From Desulfobacteraceae bacterium Eth-SRB2 (lineage in GTDB: Bacteria > Desulfobacterota > Desulfobacteria > Desulfobacterales > UBA11574), in assembly GCA_004193595.1 (NCBI GenBank), contig RPGQ01000005.1, forward strand, positions 4,021-68,020: a DNA stretch of 64,000 bases. The letters run 5' to 3'. The translations under genes were made by a program, and so were the position numbers. Below are positions 38,345 to 55,592 of this stretch, in pieces (positions within the stretch are counted from its first letter, which is position 1; each line of letters opens with the position of its first letter). The notes below the pieces were generated by a model that saw nothing but the letters and a program-made list of their open reading frames with translations, did not search any database and was not told the DNA's origin.

Positions 38345-39487
38345 ATGTCAGAAAATCAGATGAAAGATCGTATTGCAGAGGAATTGAAGAAGGCCAAAGA
38401 GGCCGGTCAGATCACCACAGAAAAGGTATATGAAACTGTCAAGGCGGCGGTAGCAGATGCCGTAGCTGAAAGCAAAGGTGATATCGAGGAACTTCGCCCT
38501 ATTGTGAAAGATGCTGTCTCTGCTGCTATTGAGGGTTTGAAGGATGTGGGCGTGGATGTAAAAGATAAAGTAGAAGGGGCCGTAGTAGGCGCCATTGCCG
38601 GTGCTTCCAGCAGGGGTGATGAAGCGGTTGAGGCCGCCCGGGAAGAACTTCGCAAACTCGAAACACGTTTGGAAGATGAAAGGACCAGGTTGGCCCATGG
38701 TCTCAGGGAGGGCTTGGAAGGAGCAAGGGAGGCAGTGGCTTCATTGCCTGAAGAAATTCAGGAACAGGTGGAATCTGCTGTGTCCGACATTAAACTGAAA
38801 AGTACAGAACTATTGGGTTTAACAAAACAGACTGTTAAAGAAGCGGTAAAACATGCTATTGAGTCAGGAAAAGATGTAAAAGAAACCGTCGTTCAGATTA
38901 CAAGCCATGCCACGGAAAGGGCGCTTAAAGAGGGCCGGTTCACCGCTGACAGGGTCAAGGAAATTGCCGACAAGGTCATGTCCGGCGCAGTGGAAGCCGC
39001 AGAGGAAGCGGGTAAAGAGGTCAAGGACGTTGCCCTGGGAGCTTTTAAAGGGGCTCAGGAAGGAATCGCATCGGCAGTTGAATCTGTCGGGGATAAGACA
39101 AAGGCATTTGTCCATGAGGACCTCGCAGAGACAAAGGAAGATCTGGAGGCAATCGAAGATCTTTTTATAGAGACTGCCCGCAAAGTGGCAAGACGTTCCG
39201 GAGAAGTGGCAAAGGATGTATTAAATGATCTGGCTGATCAAACAAAAAAAACGAGTTCTGTCTTGAAAGAAAAAGCTATACATGCTGCAGAAACAACTGC
39301 CAAAAGATTGAAGGAGACTAGTAAAGATGCGGCCAAAGCGACTGCAAAAGCTGCAAGCAAAGCAGCCCATGTCATGGCTAAAGAGACTAAAGAACTCGGG
39401 AAAAGGTCTGTGGATGTGGCCAGGGGGGCCATTACAGGTATGTGGGAAGGGGCAAAGCATGCTTTAAAGAAAGACAAGAAGGAATAA
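38345..39487 (+). CDS. Long helical repeat protein (DUF6781/apolipoprotein-like)
   Basis: A 380-residue, nearly all-helical protein made of 11- and 22-residue-like amphipathic repeats rich in Ala/Lys/Glu/Val (for example VKEAVKHAIESGKDVKETV, ALKEGRFTADRVKEIA, AVEAAEEAGKEVKDVALGAF), similar in texture to apolipoproteins and phasins. No signal peptide. A central basic/acidic pattern and Lys/Ala-rich tail (KATAKAASKAAHVMAKE) end with GMWEGAKHALKKD. I recall such proteins as DUF6781. GGAGG lies before the ATG and the gene starts 39 nt after the activase, so it probably belongs to that operon. A scaffold, lipid- or nucleoid-associated role is possible. Confidence 0.78.
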   Translation: MSENQMKDRIAEELKKAKEAGQITTEKVYETVKAAVADAVAESKGDIEELRPIVKDAVSAAIEGLKDVGVDVKDKVEGAVVGAIAGASSRGDEAVEAAREELRKLETRLEDERTRLAHGLREGLEGAREAVASLPEEIQEQVESAVSDIKLKSTELLGLTKQTVKEAVKHAIESGKDVKETVVQITSHATERALKEGRFTADRVKEIADKVMSGAVEAAEEAGKEVKDVALGAFKGAQEGIASAVESVGDKTKAFVHEDLAETKEDLEAIEDLFIETARKVARRSGEVAKDVLNDLADQTKKTSSVLKEKAIHAAETTAKRLKETSKDAAKATAKAASKAAHVMAKETKELGKRSVDVARGAITGMWEGAKHALKKDKKE

Positions 39488-39530: not shown

Positions 39531-39665
39531 TTGACGGTTTCGTAAAAAGTCGAAAAACACCCTTTTTTGTCATTCCGGCGAAAGCCGGAATCCAGTAAAT
39601 TCAATGGCTTCTGGATGCCGGATCAAGTCCGGCATGACGGTTTTAGGACTTTTTACGAGTTTATC
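39531..39665. repeat. MITE-like repeat, TCGTAAAAAGTC family (interior type 2)
   Basis: Inverted ends TTCGTAAAAAGTC (from 39531 TTGACGG) and GGACTTTTTACGAG. The interior holds two hairpins, TTCCGGCGAAAGCCGGAA and GCCGGATCAAGTCCGGC. An inverted copy lies at 59057-59190. No ORF. Confidence 0.7.
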
Positions 39666-39923: not shown

Positions 39924-41393
39924 ATGAAAATTTCACAAAAACTGCTTGTTGTTATATTAATACTATTTTTCGGGATTGAACTGAATCCGGTTGCAAAACC
40001 CGTTTTTGCTCAAAACCGTAATGCTGATGCCACAGATTTTACGAGCCGGTTGACTACCATTTTCGGTCTGGGCAGCCGGATATCTCATGAAGGCAGCGAG
40101 ATGCTTTTGCCCTTCAGGCAAAACGGGAAACTCCACCTGGCCTTAACGGATTGCATCGATATTGCATTGGAGAGAAACCTGGATATTCATCTCATCGAAG
40201 AGACCCTGGCCCAGGCCAATGCCGATATCACCCGGGCATGGTCGGCCATGCTCCCTTTCTTTGGCGCTGAGGCAAATTACACAAAGCTTGATGAAGATCT
40301 AACCTTTGGGCTGGGGCCGGTTTCAATGACCTTCATGGATCGGGACATTTACAAGGGCGGAGTTGTTCTCCGGCAGCCGATTTTTACGGGCGGAAGACTA
40401 AATGCGGCCCGTAAGGCGGCCCGATACTCCAGGGACGCCCGCATTCAGGACAAAAAAAGTATTGAAGAGGAAATTATTTTCCAGGTCACACGGGTTTACT
40501 GGACCGCACAGGTGTCCGAGGCGTTTCATAATGTTGCTATAGAAGCCGTCGAGCTCCTCGAGAAACATGAGCATGACGTTTCCATCCTGGTTCGTGAGGG
40601 GGCGAATCCGGTAGTCGATCTGCTTCGCACTAAAACGGATCTTGCAGATGCGAGAAAAAATCTCAATGCTTCTGCCAATGCTTTTGACATCGCATTATCC
40701 GGGTTGAAAAATCTTCTGGTTATGGATCTGGAAGAACCGGTTTTCTTGACCCAGGGCCTTGACCGCCCTCCCAAACCGGCAGGCGATCTTTCTTCTTTCA
40801 CCAGCCTGGCCATTAAAAGTCGGCCGGAACTTTCGTCTTTAAAATTTCAGGTTGCGGCGGCCGAACAAGGTTTGGCTGCGGCCAGGGGAGAGTATTTCCC
40901 AAGTGTTGCCCTGGAGGGACGTTATGAGTATATTCAGGGCGATACCAGGGAGATAGACGGAGATTCTCACTGGACCGTTGGAATCGGCGCCGAAGTTCCC
41001 CTCTGGAACTGGGGAAAAACCAAGGCAGACGTCATCAAAGCCGGGTCTAAGCTTAATCAGTCGAAAATTGAGTATAAGAAGGTCGAGGAACAGATATGTC
41101 TTGAAATTCGAAAGGCTTTCTTAAATCTCGGAAAGGCGGAAAAAAACATTGCGGTAGCAGAAGCCGCCCTGAAAACATCCAATGAAGCTTACCGCATGGA
41201 AAGGGCCCGTTACCAGGCCGGAGAAGGTACCAATACAGATGTACTGGATGCCCGAACGGCTTTCAGCCGGGCTGAAGCGAATCATGTCCAGGCCCTCTTT
41301 GAGTACAATGTGGCCATGGCAACGCTTGAACGGGCGATGGGAGTAAATATCAGAGAATGCGCCAATCTTAAGCAAAAGGAGCAGACCGAATGA
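39924..41393 (+). CDS. TolC-family outer-membrane efflux channel
   Basis: Outer-membrane tunnel of a tripartite exporter. The 489-residue protein has a signal peptide (to VFA-QN), then two OEP repeats: LALTDCIDIALERNLDIHL and FGAEANYTKL in the first half and FTSLAIKSRPELSSLK, with EYFPSVALEGRYEY, in the second; long helices (about 170-240 and 385-450) build the periplasmic tunnel. AAGGAG lies 10 nt before the ATG. The stop overlaps the adaptor start (ATGA), so tolC, adaptor and permease form a coupled operon. A fragment of a related gene lies at 46663-46725. Confidence 0.93.
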   Translation: MKISQKLLVVILILFFGIELNPVAKPVFAQNRNADATDFTSRLTTIFGLGSRISHEGSEMLLPFRQNGKLHLALTDCIDIALERNLDIHLIEETLAQANADITRAWSAMLPFFGAEANYTKLDEDLTFGLGPVSMTFMDRDIYKGGVVLRQPIFTGGRLNAARKAARYSRDARIQDKKSIEEEIIFQVTRVYWTAQVSEAFHNVAIEAVELLEKHEHDVSILVREGANPVVDLLRTKTDLADARKNLNASANAFDIALSGLKNLLVMDLEEPVFLTQGLDRPPKPAGDLSSFTSLAIKSRPELSSLKFQVAAAEQGLAAARGEYFPSVALEGRYEYIQGDTREIDGDSHWTVGIGAEVPLWNWGKTKADVIKAGSKLNQSKIEYKKVEEQICLEIRKAFLNLGKAEKNIAVAEAALKTSNEAYRMERARYQAGEGTNTDVLDARTAFSRAEANHVQALFEYNVAMATLERAMGVNIRECANLKQKEQTE

Positions 41394-42574
41394 AACGAAT
41401 CCTCATGTATATTTTTATTGCCGGGGTTGTCGCAGGCGCGGTTTTTTTTACCTTTCGAACCATGAACAGGGATAGAAGCAAGAACGATACAAAAGTGGAC
41501 GAAGCGGCAGTACCGGTGGAAGTCGTGTGCGCAGCCTTTCATGATTTTCAGGATACCACCAATGCCGTGGGCACGCTCAGAGCGCGTGAAACCAATCTTT
41601 TAAGTCCGAAAGTGGCCGGTAACGTGGATGCCGTTCTGGTGGATATCGGCGACAGGGTCGAGGCAGGCCAGGTCGTCGTTCTGCTGGACCGCACCAGTTT
41701 TGAACTGGCTGTTAAACAGGCGAATGCTGCGTATCAGTCGGCAGAGGCGGCTGTGGCGCAGGCAGGGTCGCAGCTTGATCAGGCACGGAAAGAGTACCGC
41801 CGCGCCACCAGACTTTTAGCCGAAAAAGTCATCCCCCAGAGCCGGTTCGATGCCGCGGAAGCGACCTATAATACTGATCGGGAGGCGCTGTCTGCGATAA
41901 AGGGAAAATACAGCCAGTCCAGGGTTGCCCTTGAAACAGCCCGGGAGCATTTAAAGAACGCCCGGATTCGATCTTCCATTACAGGGGTCGTTGTGAATAG
42001 AAATGTGGAGGTGGGACAATCGGTGGCGCCGGGTGTTCAGGTTCTTAGAATTCTTGATCAGACATCGATGAAAACGGATGTTGAACTCCCGGAGAAAGAT
42101 TTTGGGCGTATTACCGTTGGTGCCTCAGCGGTGGTAACGGTGGATGCCTACCAGGGACAGGACTTTCCTGGAAAAGTTACGGTGATCAATCCGATGGTTG
42201 ACCAGAGGGTGCGCACTTTTCGGGTTCGGATTGAAATATCTAACCCATCCGGAAAACTGGTGGACGGAATGTTTGCCAGGGTGAGGCTTTTAACCGGGCG
42301 GAAAACAGCATTGGCCATACCCCGCGATACTCTTAACCGGCTACCGGGAAGCGGAACTTTCTATGTGTTTATTGTAAAAGGGGATACGGTGGTAAAACGA
42401 ACCCTAAAAACAGGAAAAGTGGGTAATCAATATGCCGAGGTGCTGGAAGGCTTGACCAAAGGTGAAAAGATAGTCATAAGCGGCGCCGGGCGGTTGCGAT
42501 CCGGCATGAAGGTGGTTGTTAAGGATGAAAAGGGTGGCAATTCTAAGATCTCCGCTGGGGAGAAACAACAATGA
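41390..42574 (+). CDS. RND efflux periplasmic adaptor subunit
   Basis: Adaptor of 394 residues. It has one N-terminal membrane anchor (about 4-22, no lipobox Cys), the lipoyl half-motif VDAVLVDIGDRVEAGQVVVLLD (about 80-105), a coiled-coil hairpin (about 105-175, with RATRLLAEKVIPQSRFDAAEA), the second lipoyl half (RSSITGVVVNRNVEVGQSV), a beta-barrel (ELPEKDFGRITVG, VINPMVDQRVRTFRVRI) and a membrane-proximal domain. The start overlaps the tolC stop (ATGA) and its stop overlaps the permease start in the same way. The substrate is not evident. Confidence 0.93.
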   Translation: MKRILMYIFIAGVVAGAVFFTFRTMNRDRSKNDTKVDEAAVPVEVVCAAFHDFQDTTNAVGTLRARETNLLSPKVAGNVDAVLVDIGDRVEAGQVVVLLDRTSFELAVKQANAAYQSAEAAVAQAGSQLDQARKEYRRATRLLAEKVIPQSRFDAAEATYNTDREALSAIKGKYSQSRVALETAREHLKNARIRSSITGVVVNRNVEVGQSVAPGVQVLRILDQTSMKTDVELPEKDFGRITVGASAVVTVDAYQGQDFPGKVTVINPMVDQRVRTFRVRIEISNPSGKLVDGMFARVRLLTGRKTALAIPRDTLNRLPGSGTFYVFIVKGDTVVKRTLKTGKVGNQYAEVLEGLTKGEKIVISGAGRLRSGMKVVVKDEKGGNSKISAGEKQQ

Positions 42575-45500
42575 AGCTACCTGAAATAGCAGTAAGACGG
42601 CCGGTAACAACAATAATGGTTTTTGCCGCCCTTGTCATGATTGGGGCGGTTGCGTTTTTCAAGGTTAATCTGGACCTGCTGCCGGACATCGAACCGCCGG
42701 CCGTGAGTGTGATTACCGCCTATCCGGGGGCTTCTGCTGTGGATGTGGAGTCCGAAGTCACCAAGTACCTTGAAGACCATCTCTCCACTACACCTGATCT
42801 CGACCGTCTGGAATCAAAATCAAAGGACAACATATCCATCGTCAATTGCATATTCGACTGGGGTACGGACCTGGATGTGGCGGTGAATGACATCCGTGAG
42901 AAGATCGACCTTTCAAAGCCGGACATTGCAGACGGTGCCAAAGAACCCTTTATTTTCAAGTTCAGCAGTTCCATGGTTCCGGTTTTAGTCATGACCGTGA
43001 CGGCTAAAGAAAGCAGTCCCGATCTTTACAGGATCGTGGACAAGCTGATTGCGGATCCTTTGAAACGTATCCCCGGTGTGGGAGCCATAGTCTATGTTGG
43101 AGGTCAGGAGAGACAGATCAACGTACATTTCGAACGCGAGGCCCTGGAAGCCTACCACATTTCCATCCAACAAATCAGGGGGGTGCTTGCCGCTGAAAAT
43201 CTCAACCTTCCCGCGGGTACAGTTAAGGTGGGCAGGAAAGAACTCCAGATCAGGGTGGCAGGCCGTTTCAGGAACGCCCGTGAGATCGCCGGTATTGTCA
43301 TCGGAAGTCACAACGATGCCCTCGTCCGTCTCAGGAATGTTGCCGATGTCAGTGATGCTTTCGAAGAGCCGCAGGAATGGGCATGGTCAGGCGATCTCCC
43401 CGCTATAGCAGTTATTATCCAGAAACAGTCCGGCGCCAACACTGTGAACGTCATCAATCGTATTAAAAAAGAATTGAAGACATTAAAAAACAGTCTTCCC
43501 GCGGATATCGAGGTTCATACCATCATAGACAATTCCTACCACATTAATAATATGATTAAAAACCTGGCCGAAGCCGCTATTGTCGGAGGCATCCTTGTTG
43601 TCATCGTCTGTTTTCTCTTTCTTCGCAGGTATCGATCCAGCCTGATAGTCACTATGTCGATCCCTTTATCCATTATCGCCTCCTTTATCGGACTCTATTT
43701 CATGGGATATACTTTTAACGTGATTTCTCTCATGAGCCTTGCCATCGCCATGGGTATGGTAGTGGATGATGCCATCGTGGTGTTGGAAAACGTGATCCGG
43801 CATATCGATGGGGGAGAGGACCCGAAAACAGCCGCCGTCACCGGCGCTTCAGAGGTGGCACTGGCGGTAGCGGCATCGGCCTTGAGTATTGTGGCTGTTT
43901 TTGTTCCGCTCCTTTTTGTCAAGGGAATCGCCGGAATTCTCTTTGGACAACTGGCCTTTATCATGATTGTCGTTATTTTAACATCCTATTTAGTCTCTAT
44001 AACCTTGACGCCGATGGCCTGTTCCCGATTGATTCGTCCTTTGAGTAAAAGGAAGACAAACAAACTGTTTGAATGGAGTGAACGGATATTTAATAATATT
44101 GAAGCAGCATACTCTCGTATTATCGAACGCGGATTGAAGCACCGTGTGATATCGCTCGGTTTGATATGTCTTGTATTTTTCGGAAGCCTGACCTTAATTC
44201 CTGTTGTGGGAACCGAATTCTTTCCGGAAGTGGATTCAGGTGAAGTGGAAGTGGTTCTTGAAATGGCTGAGGGCACTAGGGATGAAATCACGGCCCGAAC
44301 AACAGAGCAGATGCTCAGTGCAGTCAATGCCGTTTCGGAAATGGAGGCTTCTTACGCCATTGCCGGCCAAACCAAGAAAGGCTTTTTAACGGCGCTCGGT
44401 TTTGACGAAGGGACAAATATAGGGCGCATCGGCGGACGTCTCATTGACAAAGAAGAGCGAAGCCGCTCCGCCAAAGTGATAGCCGCAACGCTTCGCGATC
44501 GAGTCATGGAACTGCCGGGTGTTTCAAAGTTTTCGGCCAGTGCGGTCAGCTCCATTCAAAAGGCTTTTTTAGGAGGCGGACAGGCCATCAGCATTGAGGT
44601 GCTGGGCCACGATATTGAAAAAACCGATAGAATAGCCGAACAAATCCGGCTCATAACGAAGAGTGTGCCGGGATCGGTGGATATTTCAGTCAGCAGAAAA
44701 CAGCCGCGACCGGAAATCCGTGTACGTCTTGACCGGGATAAGGCGGCCTCTTTAGGATTGAATGTCGCGATTGTGGCTGATGCATTGAGAACCAACTACT
44801 ATGGTTTTGATGATACAAAATTCCGAGAGGCCGGGGACGACTTCGACATTGAACTGCGCCTGAAGAAGGACGAACGGCAGAGCATTCTGCAGATCGGAGA
44901 GACCCCGCTGACGACTATGAGGGGACAGATCGTCAAGCTTCGCAACGTGGCAACTATTGAAGAGATGTTCGGGCCCGTGGAGATTGCCCGAAAGAACCGT
45001 ATCAGGATCACTCGCGTTCAGGCAGGTGTTCAAGGTAGAGTTTTGGGGGATGTTGTGCGCGATATTCGAGAAAAAATGTCAACTCTTGATCTGCCCCCCG
45101 GCGTTTCCATCGAATGGGGAGGTGAAGTGGAAGAACAGAGAAAGGCCTTTAATGACATGATGCTTCTTTTGATACTCGGCATAATTCTCGTTTATATGGT
45201 CATGGCAGGGCAGTTTGAGGATTTTACAGATCCGTTTATCATCATGTTCTCTGTTCCCTTTGCCTTTGTAGGAGTGATCTGGGCTTTTGTGCTCACGGGA
45301 ACTGCACTTAACGTAATAACCTTTATAGGTATTATCATGCTAATGGGCATTGTTGTAAAGAACGCCATTGTGTTTGTGGATTACACCAAGCAATTGAGTG
45401 GCCGCGGCATGAATCTCCATGACGCCGTTGTCACGGGGGGAAAGACGCGTCTGCGTCCCGTTCTAATGACCAGCCTGACCACAATTTTCGGCATGATCCC

Positions 45501-45654
45501 CCTGGCCCTTTCCCGGGGGGAGGGATCGGAAATCTGGAACGCACTGGGCATTACTGTAATCGGCGGGCTTCTAATTAGCGGAATTGTGACATTGATTCTT
45601 GTACCGATTGTTTATTATATGGTTCATAAACCTCGATCTGAAGGAAATACATAA
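42571..45654 (+). CDS. RND efflux permease
   Basis: Proton-driven inner-membrane pump of 1027 residues, the full family length. Twelve membrane helices in the usual 1+5 and 1+5 arrangement; the proton-relay Asp pair is in SLAIAMGMVVDDAIVVLENV (helix 4). It begins MKLPEIAVRRPVTTIMVF and shows LPDIEPPAVSVITAYPGAS, the porter-domain duplication, and a terminal half with GIIMLMGIVVKNAIVFVDY. The motifs fit the hydrophobe/amphiphile efflux (HAE) branch, including RND pumps of Gram-negative anaerobes. Coupled to the adaptor and followed 69 nt later by a patatin-like phospholipase gene. Confidence 0.94.
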   Translation: MKLPEIAVRRPVTTIMVFAALVMIGAVAFFKVNLDLLPDIEPPAVSVITAYPGASAVDVESEVTKYLEDHLSTTPDLDRLESKSKDNISIVNCIFDWGTDLDVAVNDIREKIDLSKPDIADGAKEPFIFKFSSSMVPVLVMTVTAKESSPDLYRIVDKLIADPLKRIPGVGAIVYVGGQERQINVHFEREALEAYHISIQQIRGVLAAENLNLPAGTVKVGRKELQIRVAGRFRNAREIAGIVIGSHNDALVRLRNVADVSDAFEEPQEWAWSGDLPAIAVIIQKQSGANTVNVINRIKKELKTLKNSLPADIEVHTIIDNSYHINNMIKNLAEAAIVGGILVVIVCFLFLRRYRSSLIVTMSIPLSIIASFIGLYFMGYTFNVISLMSLAIAMGMVVDDAIVVLENVIRHIDGGEDPKTAAVTGASEVALAVAASALSIVAVFVPLLFVKGIAGILFGQLAFIMIVVILTSYLVSITLTPMACSRLIRPLSKRKTNKLFEWSERIFNNIEAAYSRIIERGLKHRVISLGLICLVFFGSLTLIPVVGTEFFPEVDSGEVEVVLEMAEGTRDEITARTTEQMLSAVNAVSEMEASYAIAGQTKKGFLTALGFDEGTNIGRIGGRLIDKEERSRSAKVIAATLRDRVMELPGVSKFSASAVSSIQKAFLGGGQAISIEVLGHDIEKTDRIAEQIRLITKSVPGSVDISVSRKQPRPEIRVRLDRDKAASLGLNVAIVADALRTNYYGFDDTKFREAGDDFDIELRLKKDERQSILQIGETPLTTMRGQIVKLRNVATIEEMFGPVEIARKNRIRITRVQAGVQGRVLGDVVRDIREKMSTLDLPPGVSIEWGGEVEEQRKAFNDMMLLLILGIILVYMVMAGQFEDFTDPFIIMFSVPFAFVGVIWAFVLTGTALNVITFIGIIMLMGIVVKNAIVFVDYTKQLSGRGMNLHDAVVTGGKTRLRPVLMTSLTTIFGMIPLALSRGEGSEIWNALGITVIGGLLISGIVTLILVPIVYYMVHKPRSEGNT

Positions 45655-45723: not shown

Positions 45724-46611
45724 ATGAAAAGCATATCTTTGGTCCTTGGAAGCGGAGGCGCTCGAGGATACGCCCATATCGGGATAATTGAGGTGTTGGA
45801 GGATTATGGTTATGAGATTAAATCCATAGCCGGATCTTCCATGGGGGCATTGATCGGCGGACTTTATGCCTGCGGAAAGCTCGATGCTTATAAGGAGTGG
45901 GTTTTAACTCTTGACGTCCTGGATGTATTGAAACTGCTGGATTTCACAATCGGTAAAATAGGTTTTATCAAAGGCGACAGAGTCTTCAGCATCATGGAAG
46001 AGATGATTGGTGAAAATAATATTGAGGATTTGCCCATAGCCTTTACCGCTGTGGCTACTGATTTGACAACTCAAAAAGAAGTGTGGCTGCAAAGAGGAAA
46101 TTTAAGTGTTGCTGTCAGGGCATCGATTGCCATCCCAACGATTTTTACTCCCGTTGAAATAAAAAATAAAATATTAATCGATGGCGGTATACTAAATCCT
46201 GTTCCCATAGGACCCACGCTATCCGACATGACCGATTTAACAGTTGCGGTTAACTTAAATTCGACTATAATAATGAAACATCAAATAATAATGCCCGAAA
46301 AAGAAAAGAAGCGGCAACACCTCTTGCACGGCAAAATAAATACCTTTTTGGAACAAAAACTTCCAGGCAAAGAAGAACCCGGCCTCAATTACACGAAAAT
46401 ATTCAGAAAAACGATTGATGCCATGCAACATGCCATTACACGGTATAAAATGGCAGGATATCAGCCGGACGTGGTCATTGAAATTCCGAGTAACGCCTGT
46501 GGCTTTTATGAATTTCATAAAGCATATGAGATGATCGAAATTGGGAAAAAGACGGCCGCTGAAGCATTAGAAAGACTTGATGATGCGACACTCCATCCGA
46601 ATAGTGGATGA
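45724..46611 (+). CDS. Patatin-like phospholipase (RssA-type)
   Basis: A 295-residue serine hydrolase of the patatin family: oxyanion loop GSGGARGYAHIG (9-20), nucleophile elbow GSSMG with Ser39, and catalytic Asp153 in LIDGGILNP, the Ser-Asp dyad of the family. No signal peptide, so cytoplasmic or membrane-associated; likely acts on acyl esters of lipids. CCGGAG lies before the ATG. It follows the RND operon on the same strand. The last part (FHKAYEMIEIGKK) is closely copied in a relic at 53528-53585. Confidence 0.9.
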   Translation: MKSISLVLGSGGARGYAHIGIIEVLEDYGYEIKSIAGSSMGALIGGLYACGKLDAYKEWVLTLDVLDVLKLLDFTIGKIGFIKGDRVFSIMEEMIGENNIEDLPIAFTAVATDLTTQKEVWLQRGNLSVAVRASIAIPTIFTPVEIKNKILIDGGILNPVPIGPTLSDMTDLTVAVNLNSTIIMKHQIIMPEKEKKRQHLLHGKINTFLEQKLPGKEEPGLNYTKIFRKTIDAMQHAITRYKMAGYQPDVVIEIPSNACGFYEFHKAYEMIEIGKKTAAEALERLDDATLHPNSG

Positions 46612-46662
46612 GCTTACTTCTTTCATTTCCATTGTTTTTTGATCCGCATTTTGTTGCAGCTT

Positions 46663-46725
46663 GTATCTCATTCAGGCAGCGGGATGTTTTTGCCGTTCAA
46701 ACGAAACGGAAAACTTTATCTTTAA
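46663..46725 (+). pseudogene. Relic of a tolC-family gene
   Basis: One frame reads VSHSGSGMFLPFKRNGKLYL then a stop. It matches residues 53-72 of the TolC at 39924-41393 at 13 of 20 positions, and the DNA is clearly alike (TATCTCAT, AGGCAGCG, TTTTGCC blocks in the same order). Nothing else of tolC follows. It lies just after the patatin stop, where a second tolC of a tandem cassette would begin. Confidence 0.7.
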
Positions 46726-46773
46726 ATCCATAACAGAAGTTGAACTACAGAACACATAAGAGATGAAAAATCC

Positions 46774-47496
46774 ATGATCCGAGGATTATTTTTAAAGTGG
46801 CGCATCGTGATCGGCATTGTATTGCTCTTGGCGCTTGTCGGAGCCCTCTTTTATTTTCAAGGGAAATTCCACGTGGTAAGCGTGGTAAGCTTTCTTGAAT
46901 GGCTTGAGGGGCTTGGCGCGTGGGCTCCGTTCCTGTTCATCTTGATCGATATGTTAGTGGTCGTGCTTGTCTTGCCGGGGGTTATCCTCACCCTTGGCGC
47001 CGGATTTATTTTTGGTATTTTAAGAGGTTCGCTGTATGTAATTATCGGTTCGACGATAGGAGCCACGATCGCCTTTTTGATTGCACGGTATCTTTTCGGC
47101 GAAAGGGCAACGGGGTTCTTCCTTGGCCATTCAAAGCTGAAGCTGGTTAACGATGAATTTAAGCGAGCAGGCTGGAAGATTGTTTTGCTTACCCGCCTTG
47201 TACCGTTTTTTCCGTTTAAGCTCTCCAATTATCTGTTCGGGCTTATGCAAATCTCCCTGCGGGATTTCATTTTCGGCGTTTTCTTCGGAATTATACCATT
47301 TACGATCACCAACGTATATATAGGCTCTCTTGCCGCCGATCTCGCAACGATCGGTTCACGCACGGCTTCGAGATCTAAGATGGAATGGACAATTTATGGC
47401 ATTGGCGTTATCATTGCAATTATTGCGGTCATTTACATCACTCACCTGGCCCGGAGAGCTCTTGATAAGTATATTTCGAGGGAAGAATTGCCTTGA
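46774..47496 (+). CDS. TVP38/TMEM64 (VTT-domain) membrane protein
   Basis: A 240-residue integral membrane protein of the DedA/VTT superfamily, relatives of which scramble or flip lipids. It has an N-terminal helix (about 7-27), then the VTT core with PGVILTLGAGFIFGILRGSLYV, GSTIGATIAFLIARYLFG, and the signature R-L-V-P-F-F-P-F-K-L-S-N-Y-L-F-G near residue 150, followed by FIFGVFFGIIPFTITNVYIGS and a C-terminal helix. Only a weak ribosome site (AAGAG) lies before the ATG. It begins 48 nt after the tolC relic and opens a run of sugar- and lipid-active genes. Confidence 0.88.
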   Translation: MIRGLFLKWRIVIGIVLLLALVGALFYFQGKFHVVSVVSFLEWLEGLGAWAPFLFILIDMLVVVLVLPGVILTLGAGFIFGILRGSLYVIIGSTIGATIAFLIARYLFGERATGFFLGHSKLKLVNDEFKRAGWKIVLLTRLVPFFPFKLSNYLFGLMQISLRDFIFGVFFGIIPFTITNVYIGSLAADLATIGSRTASRSKMEWTIYGIGVIIAIIAVIYITHLARRALDKYISREELP

Positions 47497-47596
47497 AAGT
47501 GTATGCAATAAAATCTACGCCCTTACAGAGGAAAATCTTCATGCGGATTGGATATCCGAAAACAATACATATAACAATACACACAAGAGGTGAGAG

Positions 47597-49849
47597 ATGG
47601 TGTGGTTGAAATGGTTGCCCTGGAGATTTATCGTTCGCCGCGTTGCCAAGGCCCACGGGTTTCTTGACCCGATCGCCTTGCTGGCCCATGTCCATCGATT
47701 TGCCCAGCCTTCAGAGGTTCATGAGCCGATCGAGTTGTTGCGTGCCGGAATGGTGCTTCATGCACGGGGCCTTATTAACAGCCGTGTCATCCAGCACAAC
47801 CTGGATTGGGTATGGCCCTACTGGATCGAGCGTCAATTTGACCCCAGGGACAACGCATTTGTCCCGCGAGCTTTTTCCATCACCCACATCAATCTTACCT
47901 TTCGCAACTGGACGGCCATGGGTTTGCCGGACTGTCCGGAATTACCCATCGTGGATCCTCGGGGTCTGGTCACCCCCTTTTTTGATGAATGGTCACTTGA
48001 TGCCTGGATTATGACTGAAGATGGCCGCTTCTTGCTCCCTTCTCGTTGCAAATCTTGTAGTCAGCGGCTTGATATTGACAATACCCTTGCCATAACCACC
48101 GAAACACGGCAGGAAAATCTTTCTCTAATCACTCATGCGGATGTTCAACCAGGATCCGGCACACCAATCTGTCAGGTAAAACTTGAAGCCTGTGCGGACA
48201 CTGATGCCTGGGTCGTTGTAGCGATTCGTCCATACAATCCGGAAGGGATCAGCTTTATCCACCAGGTCGTCCTCTCGCCCGACCGGACGACCTGGAATAT
48301 CGACGGATGTCGCAATATCGAATTTAGCGCTCCGGCCGACCGGCACCAAGTTTCTCATTATCGCACCGGAGATGTTTATATCCATTTACGCGATTTCGAT
48401 GAGAAAAGCCAGGTCAAATGCGATGTGGGCATGGCCACCGCGGCAGCACTTTTCAAGCTCGAACCTGATAAACTCCGGGAAATTGCCGTGAACATCCCCC
48501 TAAAGAGAGGCGATTCGCAACTACATCTCACAAGTGTACCCTGGTATGAAATCATGAGAAACCGTTGTGAACTCCGTATTCCTGATGAAGATTTTCAGTT
48601 TCTGTATGACGTGGCTTTAAGAACGCTGGTCCTCAACTCGCCCGGTGATGTCTACCCGGGTCCTTATACTTACAAACGATTCTGGTTTCGTGACGCGGCC
48701 TTTATCATTTACGCCTTGCTTTGTGCCGGTTTCATTGATCGCGCCGAGCGTGCACTCGACCGCTTTCCTGCTCGCCAGAATGCTTTTGGATTTTTTCACT
48801 CCCAGGACGGTGAATGGGATTCCAATGGAGAGGCCCTATGGATCATATGCCGGTTTTGCCGGCTTACCGGCCGTCCGCCCAAGGGTAAGTGGTGGAAATC
48901 CATTCGTCGTGGCGCCCGCTGGATCTCTAAGAAACGCTTGTCAGACGACCAAAACTCTATGCATTCGGGTTTATTGCCCGCGGGTTTCAGCGCCGAGCAT
49001 CTTGGTCCCAATGACTACTATTACTGGGACGACTTTTGGGGGGTCGCCGGTTTGCGGGCCGCCGCCTATCTTGCAGAATCCATTGGAAATAATAAAGCAA
49101 AAGAGGAATTCCTTCACGAGACGGAAACATTCTCGGCAGCGGTGGATCGCAGCCTGAGCAAAGTGGCCAAGTGCCTTGGTCGGCCTGCGATGCCCGCCTC
49201 TCCTTACCGGCGGCTTGATTCCGGAGCAATCGGGTCCCTGGCTGCGGGCTACCCTCTCCGACTTTACCCGCCGGATGATCCCCGCTTGCTTGATACAGTC
49301 GACTTCCTCCTTGCCAATTGTTTTGTTGATGGGGGGTTCTTTCAGGAAATGACCCATTCCGGGATTAACGCTTACCTGACCATGCATGTGGCTCAGATTT
49401 TGCTTCGGGCCGGCAATCCGCGTTATTTTGATCTAATGACTTCGGTTGCAAAACTTGCATCGCCCACGGGTCAGTGGCCCGAGGCGATTCACCCACATAC
49501 CCGGGGCGGATGCATGGGTGACGGCCAGCACGTTTGGGCAGCCGCCGAGTGGGTAATTATGATAAGAAATTGTTTTGTGCGCGAGGAAGGTAATCGCTTG
49601 ATCCTGGCTTCCGGGATTCCGCAGCGCTGGCTCAGGGGCAAGTCGACTCTTTCCTTCGGCCCCGCTCCGACTTCCTTCGGCACACTCCGGATTTCCGTTG
49701 AACCAGAGAGGGATAAGATTGCTATCTCCTGGCAAGGGACATGGCACGCCGAACCGCCTGTCATTAAAGTGCATGTTCCCGGTTTTGCCCCTCTTATTGC
49801 CGGGCCGGATCAAAATTGCATCGACCTAAACCGAGGAGATGCCTTATGA
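47597..49849 (+). CDS. (alpha/alpha)6-barrel glycosidase-like protein
   Basis: A 750-residue soluble protein with no signal peptide. The N-terminal 330 residues form a mostly beta region; from about 340 the repeated helical hairpins look like an (alpha/alpha)6 barrel of the glucoamylase/trehalase type: YTYKRFWFRDAAFIIYAL, DGEWDSNGEALWIICRF, NDYYYWDDFWGVAGLRAAA and TGQWPEAIHPHTRGGCMGDGQHVWAAAEW, where acidic residues (in FRDAA, YWDD and WPEA) are candidates for catalysis. The exact GH family is not clear. AGAGGTGAGAG precedes the ATG. Its stop overlaps the GT4 start (ATGA), so hydrolase and transferase are made together. Confidence 0.78.
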   Translation: MVWLKWLPWRFIVRRVAKAHGFLDPIALLAHVHRFAQPSEVHEPIELLRAGMVLHARGLINSRVIQHNLDWVWPYWIERQFDPRDNAFVPRAFSITHINLTFRNWTAMGLPDCPELPIVDPRGLVTPFFDEWSLDAWIMTEDGRFLLPSRCKSCSQRLDIDNTLAITTETRQENLSLITHADVQPGSGTPICQVKLEACADTDAWVVVAIRPYNPEGISFIHQVVLSPDRTTWNIDGCRNIEFSAPADRHQVSHYRTGDVYIHLRDFDEKSQVKCDVGMATAAALFKLEPDKLREIAVNIPLKRGDSQLHLTSVPWYEIMRNRCELRIPDEDFQFLYDVALRTLVLNSPGDVYPGPYTYKRFWFRDAAFIIYALLCAGFIDRAERALDRFPARQNAFGFFHSQDGEWDSNGEALWIICRFCRLTGRPPKGKWWKSIRRGARWISKKRLSDDQNSMHSGLLPAGFSAEHLGPNDYYYWDDFWGVAGLRAAAYLAESIGNNKAKEEFLHETETFSAAVDRSLSKVAKCLGRPAMPASPYRRLDSGAIGSLAAGYPLRLYPPDDPRLLDTVDFLLANCFVDGGFFQEMTHSGINAYLTMHVAQILLRAGNPRYFDLMTSVAKLASPTGQWPEAIHPHTRGGCMGDGQHVWAAAEWVIMIRNCFVREEGNRLILASGIPQRWLRGKSTLSFGPAPTSFGTLRISVEPERDKIAISWQGTWHAEPPVIKVHVPGFAPLIAGPDQNCIDLNRGDAL

Positions 49850-51135
49850 ACATTCTGATGATGACCAATACGTTTACCCCACACGTAGGCGGGGTAGCTC
49901 GTTCGATTGAAGCCTTCACATCCGAGTATCGCAAGCGCGGCCACCGGGTGCTGGTCGTCGCCCCGGAGTTCGAAAACATGCCGGAGAACGAGGTGGACGT
50001 AATTCGCATCCCGGCCATCCAGAACTTCAACGGCAGTGATTTTTCGGTTGTGTTATCGACCCCGGGATACCTCACAGAGACTATCAAGAAATTCGAACCC
50101 GACATCGTTCACTCCCATCATCCTTACCTGATTGGTGGAACGGCACTACGGTTGGCTATTCCCCATAAGCTTCCGCTTGTCTTCACTCACCATACCATGT
50201 ACGAACAATACACCCATTACGTTCCGGGCGATTCAGAAACGCTCAAGCGGTTCGTTATCCAGCTTTCGACCCGCTACGCAAATCTCTGCAATCAGGTCTT
50301 TGCCCCAAGTGAAAGCGTCGCTTCGGTGCTCCGTCGGCGCGGGGTTGTTGCTCGAATTGATGTCGTTCCAACCGGGGTTTACCTGGAAAAATTCGATCGA
50401 GGCAGTGGAGCGGGCTTTCGGGCGGCCATGGATATTCCCGAAAATGCCTTTGTCGTCGGTCATGTGGGTCGGCTTGCCCCGGAAAAAAATCTTGAATTCC
50501 TGGCCAAAGCAATCACCGGATTTCTTAAGACCGAAAACCGGGCTCATTTTCTGGTTGTCGGCAGGGGGCCATCGGAAAATGCAATCCGGGAGATTTTATC
50601 CCGGGGAGGAATGGCCGATCGCCTTCACACCCCCGGTGTCCTCAAGCATCCCCTGCTTGCGAGTGGTTATCGCGCCATGGATGTGTTCGCATTTGCCTCA
50701 AAAAGTGAGACACAAGGCATGGTCTTGACCGAAGCCATGGCAGCCGGGGTACCCGTGGTAGCTCTGGATGCACCCGGAGCTCGCGAGGTTGTAGTGGATC
50801 ACCACAACGGCAGACTTCTGCATTCCGAGACCATCGAGGAATTCTCATCGGCCTTGCAATGGGTTGCCGCGCTCTCTTCCGAACGAATGCAGCAACTCAA
50901 GCAGGATGCCGAGAATAGCGCCAAAGAATTTTCCATGGAACGCTCAGCAGATAAGGCCCTGACTCTTTATAAGAATCTGCTGGATAAGGAATTTTTTGGC
51001 CGGCATAAAGAGTACCGCGCCTGGACCACTATTTTGCACGAGATCAAGACCGAGTGGGACGTCATAAAGGGTCTTGCCGGGGCGGCCGGCGCCGCATTGA
51101 ACATTAATATGTCGGGAGGTAAAAAGAAACTATGA
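49846..51135 (+). CDS. GT4 family glycosyltransferase
   Basis: A 429-residue GT-B enzyme. N-terminal acceptor domain starts MNILMMTNTFTPHVGGVARSI with VHSHHPYLIGGTALRLA; the C-terminal donor-binding domain contains VGHVGRLAPEKNLEFLAKAI, and the family signature SKSETQGMVLTEAMAAGVPVVALDAPGAREVV with the Glu-x7-Glu pair. The pattern resembles alpha-glucosyl or mannosyl transferases acting on diacylglycerol or phosphatidylinositol, but this is an inference. GAGGAG precedes the ATG at 49846 (overlapping the glycosidase stop). The stop overlaps the next gene by 4 nt. Confidence 0.92.
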   Translation: MNILMMTNTFTPHVGGVARSIEAFTSEYRKRGHRVLVVAPEFENMPENEVDVIRIPAIQNFNGSDFSVVLSTPGYLTETIKKFEPDIVHSHHPYLIGGTALRLAIPHKLPLVFTHHTMYEQYTHYVPGDSETLKRFVIQLSTRYANLCNQVFAPSESVASVLRRRGVVARIDVVPTGVYLEKFDRGSGAGFRAAMDIPENAFVVGHVGRLAPEKNLEFLAKAITGFLKTENRAHFLVVGRGPSENAIREILSRGGMADRLHTPGVLKHPLLASGYRAMDVFAFASKSETQGMVLTEAMAAGVPVVALDAPGAREVVVDHHNGRLLHSETIEEFSSALQWVAALSSERMQQLKQDAENSAKEFSMERSADKALTLYKNLLDKEFFGRHKEYRAWTTILHEIKTEWDVIKGLAGAAGAALNINMSGGKKKL

Positions 51136-53549
51136 TCTACCGTCTCGAAGTGCTTCTACGAAAGATACGCCGCTGGGTCAGCCGTAGTGAGTGGCTGATC
51201 GCTTTGCTTCGCCTTCCGAAGTCGAAGGAAACGGAGACGGCCTCCGGTCTTGTCTTAATCCAGATCGACGGTCTCTCCCACACGCAATTTGGCCACGCCC
51301 TTGACAGTGGCAAAATGCCTTTCCTTAACAGACTCCTCAGGCGCGAGGGCTATGGTCTGCACACGCTTTATTCCGGCCTGCCTTCCAGCACGCCGTCTGT
51401 TCAGGCCGAATTATTCTATGGTGTCAAAGGCGCGGTTCCGGCTTTTAGTTTCATGGATCGAAGCTCGGGCCAAATTTTCCGGATGTATGATCCATCCTCG
51501 GCCGCCAGCGTTGAACATCGACTTGAGAAAAAAGGTGAACCGCTTCTCAAAGATGGAAGTGCTTATTGCAACATTTACACCGGCGGGGCCGATAACTCTA
51601 ACTTTTGTGCATCTTCTCTTGGCTGGGGAGCAATTCTGAAAAAAGCGAACCCTTTGGCATTAAGCTTTCTGTTCCTTTCGCACCTATACAGTTTCATGCG
51701 AGCTGCTATTCTGCTGGTCATAGAGTTTTTCCTGGCACTTTTTGACTTTGTTTCCGGCGTAATCGACGGCCGCGATCTTTTCAAGGAGCTCAAATTTGTT
51801 CCTACTCGCGTCGGGATAACCATTTTGCTCCGTGAACTGATCACGATGGGGGCAAAGATTGATATTGCCAGGGGAATGCCCATCGTCCATCTTAACTTGA
51901 TTGGTTATGATGAACAGGCCCACCGCCGGGGCCCGTCGTCAAAATTTGCCCATTGGGCCCTTAAGGGGATCGATGACGCCATCGCCCGAATATGGCGTGC
52001 GGCAAAAAGTTCGGATGGCCGGAATTACGACGTATGGATTTATTCTGACCACGGTCAGGAAGATACGCTTTCCTATACAAAACAGCACGGCAGGACCATC
52101 CAGGAAGCCGTTGTTGATCTGTTTGATCTCCCGGAGAACAGCCGTGGTGACGTTCGGGCTTACAACTTTCGAGGAATCCAGTCTCAACGTGTTCGACATC
52201 TCGGCGGCAGGAAAATTCAAAAGTTGTTCCAGGTCTATCGCGGGGCTGAAGAAAAAACGAAAAAATTGAAGATCAGCATGACAGCAATGGGTCCTCTGGG
52301 CATGGTTTATTCTTCAGCTAAGATTCTTCCGGATGAACGTCATCGCCTGGCCAGAGAACTCGTGGATTCCGCAAAGGTTCCACTTGTGCTGGTGGCCGAT
52401 GAGACTGACAGACTGCGGGCCTGGAACAGCGAAGGTGAGTTCGTGCTGCCCGAACAAAAAGTCAAGGTTTTTGGTCCGGACCATCCCTTTCTGGATGAGG
52501 TCACCCGAGATTTGATTGAATTGAGCCGGCATCCTGACGCAGGGGATTTTATCATCTGCGGATGGCGAACCCACGGTACGCCTTTCAGCTTTCCCATTGA
52601 AAATGGTGCCCATGGGGGCCCGGGATCCGAGGAAACAAAAGCCTTTGCACTGCTGCCCTGCGATACGTCTCTCCCGGAGCGCAACCATTATTACCTCCGA
52701 CCCATGGATCTGCACCAAGCAGCGCTCCATTTTCTCGGTCGATCCGAAATCAAGACTTCAACGAAACCGTATCGGAAAGCCACCGACCCACGGACACTTC
52801 GCATCATGACTTACAACATCCACAGTTGTATAGGGATGGACGGCAAAATTTCACCTGAGCGGATTGCACGGGTGATCGCCCAGTATAGCCCGGACGTTGT
52901 CGCACTCCAGGAACTGGACGTTGGCAGGGCACGCACCGGACGCGTTGATCAGGCAGATCTCATCGCTCAATATCTACGGATGGATTACCACTTTCTTCCA
53001 ACAATTCAAGTTAGAAAAGGACGTTATGGAAACGCTGTCCTGACGCATTTTCCCATGCGCCAGGTCAGGGCGGAAAAGTTGCCCGGGCTGCCCGGCAAGC
53101 CGCGTCTTGAACCCAGAGGAGCACTTTGGGTCGCCATCAAGGCGGGCGGAACCGAGATCCAGTTTATCAACACCCACCTGGGTCTGAAGCCAAACGAACG
53201 CAAGTTTCAGACTGAGGCATTACTCGGCGCCGGCTGGCTATCCCATCCGGATTGTCGCGGGCCGATCATTTTATGTGGCGACTTCAATGTGCCCCCCTTT
53301 TCCCATGTGTGCCGCAGGCTACGCACCCTTCTTCTCGATGCGCAGGCCGAACTGGCCAACCATTGCCCCAAAAAAACGCTTTTCGGGCGTTTTCCATTCG
53401 CCCGCATCGATCATGTCTTCGTTAACCCCGGTATCGAGGTAATCGGTATTGAGGTACCGAAAACGGAATTGACAAGAGTTGCTTCTGACCATTTACCCCT
53501 GATCGTCGAAATTCGAATTCCCAAGCCTTTCATAAAACATATGAGATGA
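51132..53549 (+). CDS. Fusion of an alkaline-phosphatase-fold phosphodiesterase and an EEP phosphatase/nuclease domain
   Basis: An 805-residue two-enzyme protein. Residues about 38-500 form an alkaline-phosphatase-superfamily domain: LIQIDGLSHTQF (metal Asp), the nucleophile region LPSSTPSVQAELFYG, NLIGYDEQAHRRG and IYSDHGQED. A hydrophobic segment (about 172-215) may anchor it. Residues about 555-800 form an endonuclease/exonuclease/phosphatase domain: RIMTYNIHSC, VALQELD, GNAVLTHFP, NTHLGL, LCGDFNVPP, RIDHVFVN and ASDHLPL. Both parts are metal-dependent phosphoesterases. Translationally coupled to the GT4 gene. The last 8 or so residues and the stop come from a patatin gene relic, so the native C-terminus was altered. 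Confidence 0.85.
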   Translation: MIYRLEVLLRKIRRWVSRSEWLIALLRLPKSKETETASGLVLIQIDGLSHTQFGHALDSGKMPFLNRLLRREGYGLHTLYSGLPSSTPSVQAELFYGVKGAVPAFSFMDRSSGQIFRMYDPSSAASVEHRLEKKGEPLLKDGSAYCNIYTGGADNSNFCASSLGWGAILKKANPLALSFLFLSHLYSFMRAAILLVIEFFLALFDFVSGVIDGRDLFKELKFVPTRVGITILLRELITMGAKIDIARGMPIVHLNLIGYDEQAHRRGPSSKFAHWALKGIDDAIARIWRAAKSSDGRNYDVWIYSDHGQEDTLSYTKQHGRTIQEAVVDLFDLPENSRGDVRAYNFRGIQSQRVRHLGGRKIQKLFQVYRGAEEKTKKLKISMTAMGPLGMVYSSAKILPDERHRLARELVDSAKVPLVLVADETDRLRAWNSEGEFVLPEQKVKVFGPDHPFLDEVTRDLIELSRHPDAGDFIICGWRTHGTPFSFPIENGAHGGPGSEETKAFALLPCDTSLPERNHYYLRPMDLHQAALHFLGRSEIKTSTKPYRKATDPRTLRIMTYNIHSCIGMDGKISPERIARVIAQYSPDVVALQELDVGRARTGRVDQADLIAQYLRMDYHFLPTIQVRKGRYGNAVLTHFPMRQVRAEKLPGLPGKPRLEPRGALWVAIKAGGTEIQFINTHLGLKPNERKFQTEALLGAGWLSHPDCRGPIILCGDFNVPPFSHVCRRLRTLLLDAQAELANHCPKKTLFGRFPFARIDHVFVNPGIEVIGIEVPKTELTRVASDHLPLIVEIRIPKPFIKHMR

Positions 53550-53585
53550 TCGAAATGGGAAAAAAGATAGCAAGGAAAACATTGA
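53528..53585 (+). pseudogene. Relic of a patatin-family gene 3-prime end
   Basis: In the frame shifted by one from the upstream phosphodiesterase gene the DNA reads FHKTYEMIEMGKKIARKTL, 13 of 19 residues matching the C-terminal part of the patatin at 45724-46611 (FHKAYEMIEIGKK). At DNA level CATATGAGATGATCGAAAT is identical. The phosphodiesterase stop codon (TGA) lies inside it. A repeat element begins directly after. Confidence 0.75.
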
Positions 53586-53586
53586 T

Positions 53587-53740
53587 GAACTCGTAAAAAG
53601 TCCGATTTAGACGGTTTCGTAAAAAGTTCAAATTCAAGGCGTGCAAATTTTGTAATTATGAGGCGTACTTTTCGTATGTTGAATGATTACGAAATGCAGC
53701 ACAATGCAGAAGTTGGACTTTTTACGAGACCGTCAACATC
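53587..53740. repeat. MITE-like repeat, TCGTAAAAAGTC family (interior type 1), nested ends
   Basis: Starts AACTCGTAAAAAGTCC, shows a second left-type end (GACGGTTTCGTAAAAAGTT) 30 nt later and ends TTGGACTTTTTACGAGACC. The right part matches the element at 24434-24603. The two left ends suggest a second element or partial copy nested beside the first. Confidence 0.65.
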
Positions 53741-53897
53741 AGAAAGGCAGGAATATCTGACAAAGGGTGACTTTTGATACCGCCCAATTTGGGCCATTTC
53801 TAGTTCCTTGAATTCAATCGGACGAAAGAGGCTATTACAGAAGGATATATGGAAACCAAGGCCCGGCTTGACCGTATTTCTGGGGAAGGAGGATGAT

Positions 53898-55592
53898 TTG
53901 ACATTTTTTAAAATCGGAAGTGTTGGGCGCACATACCGCCACATGCAGCGTTACCGCCAGATTCTTACTGTGCTTTTCAAATATGGTTTTGGAGACATGG
54001 TTGACGCTCTTAAGATCGAACAATACCTGAAAACCGGGTTACAGATGATCTCTCGCAAACGTTGGGAAAAAATTGAGACTTTTTCCCGTGCTGCGCGGGT
54101 GAGGATGGTTTTGGAAGAGCTGGGTCCCACTTTCATCAAGATGGGCCAGATTCTTTCCACCCGGCCCGACCTGTTACCGGTTGAATTCATTCAAGAGCTT
54201 CCCAAACTACAGGATGAAGTGCCGCCTTTTCCATTTTCGGGGGTGTCATCAACAATTCAGGAAGAATTCCAAAAACCTCTTGATCAAATTTTTTCAAATT
54301 TCGATGAACAACCCCTTGCGGCAGCCTCTATCGGCCAAGTTCACCAAGCGAAAATGCTTGATGGCAAAAATGTTGTTGTCAAAATCCAGCGCCCGGGCAT
54401 CCAGCGTACTGTAGAAGTGGATCTGGAAATCATGATGCACCTGGCAGGCTTAATGGAACGACATCTGGAAGGTTGGGACATCCAGCGTCCCACCAAAATT
54501 GTGGAAGAATTTGCCAGTACGCTGGAAAAGGAGCTCGACTACACCCTGGAAGCAGCTTACATGGAGCGTTTTGCCAGGCAGTTTGAGAATGAGCCTGCAG
54601 TTTATGTGCCGCAGGTCTATCGCAAAGCAACGACCTCAAGGATTCTTACCATGGAACTTATAAGCGGCATTAAAGCTTCCGATATTGAGCGGCTGGAAAA
54701 AGAGGGGCTTGACCGCTGCAAAATTGCCGAACAGGGCTTCAACCTGATCATGAAGCAAATATTTGTTCATGGTTTCTTTCATGCCGATCCCCATCCGGGC
54801 AACATTTTTGTCCTTCCGAACAATGTCATCTGCTATATAGACTTCGGCATGATGGGACGACTCAATCTGGAAACGCGGGAACGTTTTGCAGATTTGATCA
54901 TGAGTATCGTCCATCGGGATGAAAGAAAGGCTGTGGATGCCCTGCTAAGGCTCACTCTTTCAGAGGAGGAACCGGATTATCACGCCCTGGAAAGAGATGT
55001 GGCCGAGTTTATGGATCAACATTGTTACCGTCCCCTGAAGGAGGTAAAATTAGGGGCACTGTTGCACCAGCTTCTGGAAACGGCGACAAAACATCGACTG
55101 AACATCCAGCCGGATTTGTTCTTGATGATCAAAGCCCTGAGTACGGTGGAAGGACTCGGCCGGACGCTCGATCCGGATTTTGATGTTATCGAACAGGCAT
55201 CCCCCTTCATTAAACGCATTCAGCTAAACCGCATTCACCCCCGCCGAATTGCAAAAGACATGGCAAGTTCAGGAACCGATCTTTTTCACCTTTTAAAGGA
55301 TATCCCCGGAGAGGTTCGAACAATTCTCAAATTGGCCAGACAGGGCAAGGTAAAAATAGAGTTTGAACATCGTGGATTGGAACCGATGATTGCCGCCAAT
55401 GACCGGATCAGCAACCGGCTTTCCTTTGCCGTTGTCCTGGCATCCCTGGTGATTGGCTCGGGCCTTATTGTGCTTTCCGGTATCCCGCCCAAGTGGCATG
55501 AAATACCGGTTATCGGTCTTGCCGGCTTTCTGGTTGCAGGTGCAATGGGGTTTTGGTTGTTGATATCGATTATGAGAAGCGGGAGGATGTAA
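53898..55592 (+). CDS. AarF/UbiB (ABC1) family protein kinase-like protein
   Basis: Atypical kinase-fold protein of 564 residues; UbiB/COQ8 members support quinone or lipid biosynthesis. It begins (M)TFFKIGSVGRTYRHMQRYRQI and contains the KxGQ motif (PTFIKMGQILSTRPDLLP), Ala-rich loop AAASIGQVHQA, VKIQRPG (Lys), the catalytic HADPHPGNIFV and metal-binding DFGMMG; two C-terminal helices (about 500-560) anchor it in the membrane. I chose a TTG start at 53898 because AAGGAGG lies 5 nt upstream and family members start exactly there; the open frame goes back to 53808 but that part has no ribosome site. Downstream gene is convergent. Confidence 0.9.
   Translation: MTFFKIGSVGRTYRHMQRYRQILTVLFKYGFGDMVDALKIEQYLKTGLQMISRKRWEKIETFSRAARVRMVLEELGPTFIKMGQILSTRPDLLPVEFIQELPKLQDEVPPFPFSGVSSTIQEEFQKPLDQIFSNFDEQPLAAASIGQVHQAKMLDGKNVVVKIQRPGIQRTVEVDLEIMMHLAGLMERHLEGWDIQRPTKIVEEFASTLEKELDYTLEAAYMERFARQFENEPAVYVPQVYRKATTSRILTMELISGIKASDIERLEKEGLDRCKIAEQGFNLIMKQIFVHGFFHADPHPGNIFVLPNNVICYIDFGMMGRLNLETRERFADLIMSIVHRDERKAVDALLRLTLSEEEPDYHALERDVAEFMDQHCYRPLKEVKLGALLHQLLETATKHRLNIQPDLFLMIKALSTVEGLGRTLDPDFDVIEQASPFIKRIQLNRIHPRRIAKDMASSGTDLFHLLKDIPGEVRTILKLARQGKVKIEFEHRGLEPMIAANDRISNRLSFAVVLASLVIGSGLIVLSGIPPKWHEIPVIGLAGFLVAGAMGFWLLISIMRSGRM

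Follow-up and report, generated by a model that had tools for sequence, protein, structure and literature searches.

Short gene fragments on either side of a four-gene block in the genome of the Desulfobacteraceae bacterium Eth-SRB2 are, in our judgement, probably the junction scars of a locus that was rearranged by recombination through its patatin gene. This neighbourhood has clearly been cut and rejoined repeatedly, mainly via patatin, in what is ordinary bacterial genome reshuffling. The window that we analysed is a stretch of 64,000 nucleotides (positions 4021-68020 of contig C74, which has 163,734 bases, in a genome of 5.26 Mb and 83 contigs); coordinates are those of the window unless preceded by C74. 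Relatives with the same patatin are metagenome-assembled genomes (MAGs) of Desulfobacterales, Desulfobacteraceae or Deltaproteobacteria, and all comparison genomes are MAGs or single representative genomes. G004 belongs to the same genus as the window genome. The G084 genome, assigned to another family, is an estimated 8% contaminated, and its contig, ~95% identical to the Eth-SRB2 genome over common genes, may be misbinned, which leaves its use as a structure unaffected.

Organisation of the locus

The genes and scars described here all lie on the plus strand. A phasin-like DUF6781 gene (38345-39487; Pfam DUF6781, E 8e-19) forms the conserved left neighbour of an intact tolC, HlyD-type adaptor and RND transporter trio (39924-45654, assigned with Pfam), which shares 82% DNA identity with the same three genes in G273 and G231. 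The spacer before tolC holds a member of a second dispersed repeat family (39531-39657) that occurs again on this contig and also in relatives. The trio is followed by an intact RssA-like patatin gene (45724-46611; Pfam PF01734, with the NCBIfam RssA model below its cut-off), the tolC scar (46664-46715) and the 5' flank native to the VTT gene (46711-46773). This flank is 98% identical in G205, whose proteins at this place are only ~70% identical.

The block itself consists of genes for a VTT-domain membrane protein (46774-47496; PF09335, E 4e-27), a 750-aa protein (47597-49849), a GT4 glycosyltransferase (49846-51135; Pfam GT4 domains) and AP/EEP, a fusion of a type I phosphodiesterase with an endonuclease/exonuclease/phosphatase (51132-53549; PF01663, PF03372). 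The 750-aa protein, called a glycosidase in the first-pass annotation, is conserved across the order despite having no Pfam or NCBIfam match. The GT4 gene probably starts at 49846 and not at 49816, since residue 11 of the longer ORF is where alignments with homologues begin. Downstream lie the patatin scar (53528-53577), a dispersed repeat (53578-53739), a third scar that had gone unnoticed (53768-53849), and ubiB (ABC1 kinase-like; 53841-55592 including its native upstream flank; PF03109, TIGR01982). Because the third scar continues into the upstream flank that is native to ubiB, we place the true start of this gene at ~53898 and not at 53808; alignments with the homologues of relatives begin at residue 31 of the longer ORF.

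The fragments are remnants of tolC and of two patatin genes

The tolC scar matches the 5' part of the window's own tolC without gaps at 43 of 52 nucleotides, and its local alignment score of 59 compares with a mean of 22.4 and a maximum of 32 in 300 dinucleotide shuffles of the spacer. For the patatin scar, positions 53528-53567 equal 46513-46552 at 37 of 40 nucleotides (E 6e-9 within the contig), with 43/46 to the G004 gene, and the score of 65 compares with a maximum of 35 in the same number of shuffles. At the protein level, tblastn against the spacers returned 13 matching residues of 20 for the tolC piece (TolC 53-72, E 6e-7) and 13 of 19 for the patatin piece. Chance similarity is ruled out by the shuffles. 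The first-pass annotation had described both pieces as true gene remnants on the plus strand, in the order of a tolC-adaptor-RND-patatin cassette, and this description holds, including both residue counts and an identical 19-nt run within the patatin piece.

It had also read a new C-terminus, KPFIKHMR, at the end of AP/EEP, and comparison with other copies bears this out. The protein here ends ...EIRIPKPFIKHMR (PKPFIKHMR), encoded by patatin DNA, while native ends read ...EIRIPRLL* in G190 and ...EVRTTKPL* in G256. On this contig, 67 kb away, a partial, stop-containing copy of the EEP domain (C74:124662-123916, L033) is 96% identical and keeps the native tail ...EVRISKFL*; its neighbour is presumably a transposase remnant. 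These alignments show that the AP/EEP gene has lost its native end, its last codons being those of the patatin scar, and the two sequences overlap at the junction by TTT.

The tail of the patatin scar is cut by the dispersed repeat inserted in it, a stretch of ~160 bp. This repeat is MITE-like, with inverted ends CTCGTAAAAAGTCC and GGACTTTTTACGAG, and occurs ~40 times in this genome, with many further copies in related genera. The third scar corresponds to the 3' end (residues 284-316) of a different patatin, patC, which is ~36% identical to the intact one; it shares 83% nucleotide identity with patC of G231 (61% at the amino acid level, E 4e-11). The patC scar and the ubiB upstream region overlap at their junction by 9 bp, AAGGATATA, common to both.

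At its right end, near 46711-46721, the tolC scar merges with the VTT 5' flank through a short sequence found in both; the overlap is AAACT plus partial matches. The 63-bp flank, possibly a conserved regulatory stretch, recurs at 62 of 63 positions in G205, there behind a different gene. G11 has the tolC scar with its VTT junction at 93.7% identity over 159 nt, so the join is old; since scar and junction pre-exist there behind a patatin with the same tail as the window patatin, the scar came with the patatin/VTT side. Over the same 52-nt stretch, which is short, the scar matches the window's own tolC at 43 positions and the tolC of G235 at 45; an assignment to one particular tolC lineage was dropped for this reason. 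The scar has a TCA codon in common with the tolC genes that follow patatin in G231 and G235; the corresponding codon in the window's own tolC is GAA, which is a weak sign that the scar may not have been copied from the present cassette.

The intact patatin is a mosaic with a reciprocal counterpart

We distinguished two types of patatin tail: type A, which in G11 precedes the tolC scar and VTT, and type B, which in G004 and G084 precedes ubiB. All informative sites of the window patatin between 46375 and 46512 are of type B, and those from 46553 to 46608 are nearly all of type A (one is B and two are neither). The switch from B body to A tail thus falls within 40 bp (46513-46552), the interval that is directly repeated at 53528-53567; the patatin scar is of type B at its informative tail sites. 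A single breakpoint fits 35 of the 36 patatin sites, and none of 20,000 permutations did equally well. The one sharp switch expected of a homologous exchange between two patatin copies is seen in the 3' half of the gene. Upstream, the 5' flank is of type A and the first half of the gene is mixed, which calls for more than one exchange or for gene conversion.

The product reciprocal to this exchange is present 35 kb away. At C74:86055-85933, ten A sites are followed by 19 B sites, with the change in the same 40-bp interval, an exact reciprocal mosaic that precedes a truncated ubiB without its middle. In G084, a single contig unites the counterparts of C74 49.7-50.6 kb (plus strand) and 86.0-83.9 kb (minus strand), which here lie 35 kb apart in opposite orientation, which means that C74 was broken at patatin by a rearrangement. 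There are two separate B tails, the patatin scar before the full ubiB and the 86-kb fragment before the deleted one, and to account for both, the history must include a further duplication or more.

The sequence of events that we favour would begin with a donor in which an A-tail patatin was followed by the tolC remnant and then by the four block genes. Recombination within the 40 bp near the patatin 3' end would have taken place between this donor and the B-tail patatin that resided upstream of ubiB, such that the intact gene retained its B body and acquired the A tail with everything behind it, the counterpart product being A body, B tail and ubiB. A B-tail patatin 3' end would have been stranded before ubiB, and an illegitimate deletion would then have joined AP/EEP to it at TTT; a deletion at a short common sequence could likewise have fused the patC remnant to ubiB. 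What we infer in this account is the donor, the order and direction in which the steps took place, and whether the exchange was an inversion within the chromosome or involved incoming DNA.

No Ku gene was found in this genome or in 24 relatives, which makes classical end joining unlikely and led us to reject a Ku-based system as the cause of the joins. A study of Salmonella records short repeats at the ends of bacterial deletions, duplications and inversions (PMC3411829), and recombination of that kind would be enough to produce the joins at this locus. The spontaneous rearrangements recorded there resemble the present ones in that deleted, duplicated and inverted stretches are joined at short sequences common to their ends; the joins here differ in that they overlap by 0 to ~12 bp, are fossil and are seen across species.

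Gene order in relatives

One gene set recurs in many arrangements among the relatives. In G004 and G084, the DUF6781 gene, a B-tail patatin and ubiB are directly joined, without efflux genes. G273 has the order TetR, a 342-aa protein, BadFG, DUF6781, an LpxR-like protein, tolC, adaptor, RND, patC and ubiB, while G231 has DUF6781, patC, tolC, adaptor, RND, the 342-aa protein and BadFG. G235 likewise has patC before tolC, and patatin stands directly upstream of tolC in G231, G235 and G289. The orders found thus show a single set permuted across the order, in which patatin before tolC recurs. The protein between DUF6781 and tolC, which we take to be LpxR-like from our own reading of its sequence, has no NCBIfam match. 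Internal deletions in the G084 contig (L087; 6210/6211, 6810/6811 and 8412/8417, in the BadFG-type, DUF6781 and ubiB genes) have little or no overlap at their joins.

In G349, G328 and G256 the order is tolC, adaptor, patC, RND. That patatin sits inside the efflux operon suggests that patatin and pump may be functionally linked; the arrangement tolC, adaptor, patatin, RND is seen at loci L189-L193 in several relatives. Partial tandem duplications of these genes occur in G256 (1.25 kb, 90%) and in G328 (525 bp and 207 bp). The tandem pieces lie at L190 4499-6990 and at L191 14786-15846 and 11510-13810, with identities of 90% and 82% for tolC/adaptor and 85% for patC.

The block is also found elsewhere without these scars, with all four genes in G279 and G294 and incompletely in G190 and G079, where the contig ends inside VTT and the block is cut inside GT4, respectively. 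G190, G279 and G294 keep the genes of the block in the same order, and the 750-aa protein is also present in the G079 block. Behind the block in G190 lie genes that we read as CorA- and FtsH-like, with orthologues at C74 93-97 kb. G205 and G286 carry heavily deleted remnants of the block near the DUF6781 gene.

Alternative explanations

The original proposal was that a second tandem tolC-adaptor-RND-patatin cassette once lay before ubiB, and that the four-gene block took the place of its interior, so that a scar of tolC 5' and one of patatin 3' sequence were left at the ends. The cassette order and orientation of both scars agree with this, as do the partial tandem copies in G256 and G328 and the presence in relatives of both RND-patatin and patatin-tolC neighbourhoods, which duplication followed by loss predicts. 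The part of it that stands is a second patatin upstream of ubiB. A full second cassette is not supported: tblastn of adaptor and RND against the spacers (46612-46773, 47497-47596 and 53526-53900, E 1) found no remnant of either, and no tandem of full cassettes, which relatives had been expected to show, was found among the loci fetched from the searched genomes, the only copies being the partial ones. The same type of patatin precedes ubiB without efflux genes in G004 and G084, a third scar from a different patatin is also present, and the TCA codon, weak as that sign is, points away from the window's own tolC. Because patatin often stands directly upstream of tolC in relatives, a tolC piece behind patatin needs no tandem cassette. 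We therefore consider the replaced second cassette unproven, less likely than exchange through patatin and on balance unlikely, although a tandem step may have occurred somewhere in the history of the locus, given the partial copies.

A broader parallel is rearrangement by tandem duplication and random loss, described mainly for mitochondrial genomes (PMC5745709). Changes of gene order, decaying copies between intact genes and the partial tandems in relatives resemble it; here, however, different alleles and paralogues (A- and B-tail patatin, patC) gave rise to the remnants, a four-gene block lies between them, and a clean tandem copy was not found.

Some genomic islands integrate in the 3' end of a gene, restore the gene and displace its old end. 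A Campbell-type integration of this kind would have involved a circle that carried the block together with the tolC scar and the 3' part of a patatin, and a single crossover at the patatin 3' end, which would duplicate 40 bp around 7.0 kb of DNA, restore the gene with a new tail and displace the old tail downstream. We regard it as a doubtful explanation. The direct repeats at 46513-46552 and 53528-53567 (40 bp, 37/40) do bound exactly the A tail, tolC scar and four block genes, patatin is an intact gene with a new 3' end, and the old B tail is repeated at the far boundary, adjoining ubiB. Patatin and ubiB are found without the block in G004 and G084, though both belong to other lineages and carry deletions of their own. 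No recombinase gene lies between the repeats, which enclose only VTT, the 750-aa protein, GT4 and AP/EEP; the target is a protein-coding gene and not a tRNA, and at the right repeat AP/EEP ends in a join that is itself broken. Integration alone also leaves the reciprocal A-body/B-tail fragment at 86 kb unaccounted for. Viral contigs contain no exact match to the core pattern, no plasmid record resembles the 401-bp stretch around it, and patatins in phage records are only ~29-47% identical; for the patatin 3' junction, an origin from a plasmid or virus was rejected.

A further reading, which we think very improbable, is that the 40-bp patatin stretch is a recurrent, attachment-site-like exchange point at which tail-carrying units swap without a recombinase of their own. 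If this were true, patatin would be a docking gene for cargo, an A tail bringing the tolC scar and VTT block and a B tail bringing ubiB.

An assembly artefact, in which the assembler joined unrelated stretches through the repeated patatin and dispersed repeats, is the least credible explanation: several key comparison contigs are short and break in or near patatin or early in ubiB (including those of G004, G005 and G11), as repeats do, but the window contig is continuous over 163 kb, the patatin-tolC scar-VTT join is found independently in G11, and the internal order of the block is kept in G190, G279 and G294.

Significance of the locus

The locus reveals no new system; the mechanism is ordinary but unusually readable. 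What the locus offers is a well-resolved example of how a conserved, membrane-related gene set (DUF6781, LpxR-like, tolC-adaptor-RND, patatin and ubiB) has been permuted between species via patatin genes present in duplicate and joins at short homologies; the two reciprocal products can still be read on one contig. The replaced-cassette reading is thereby corrected as over-specific, and short spacers such as these carry usable history.
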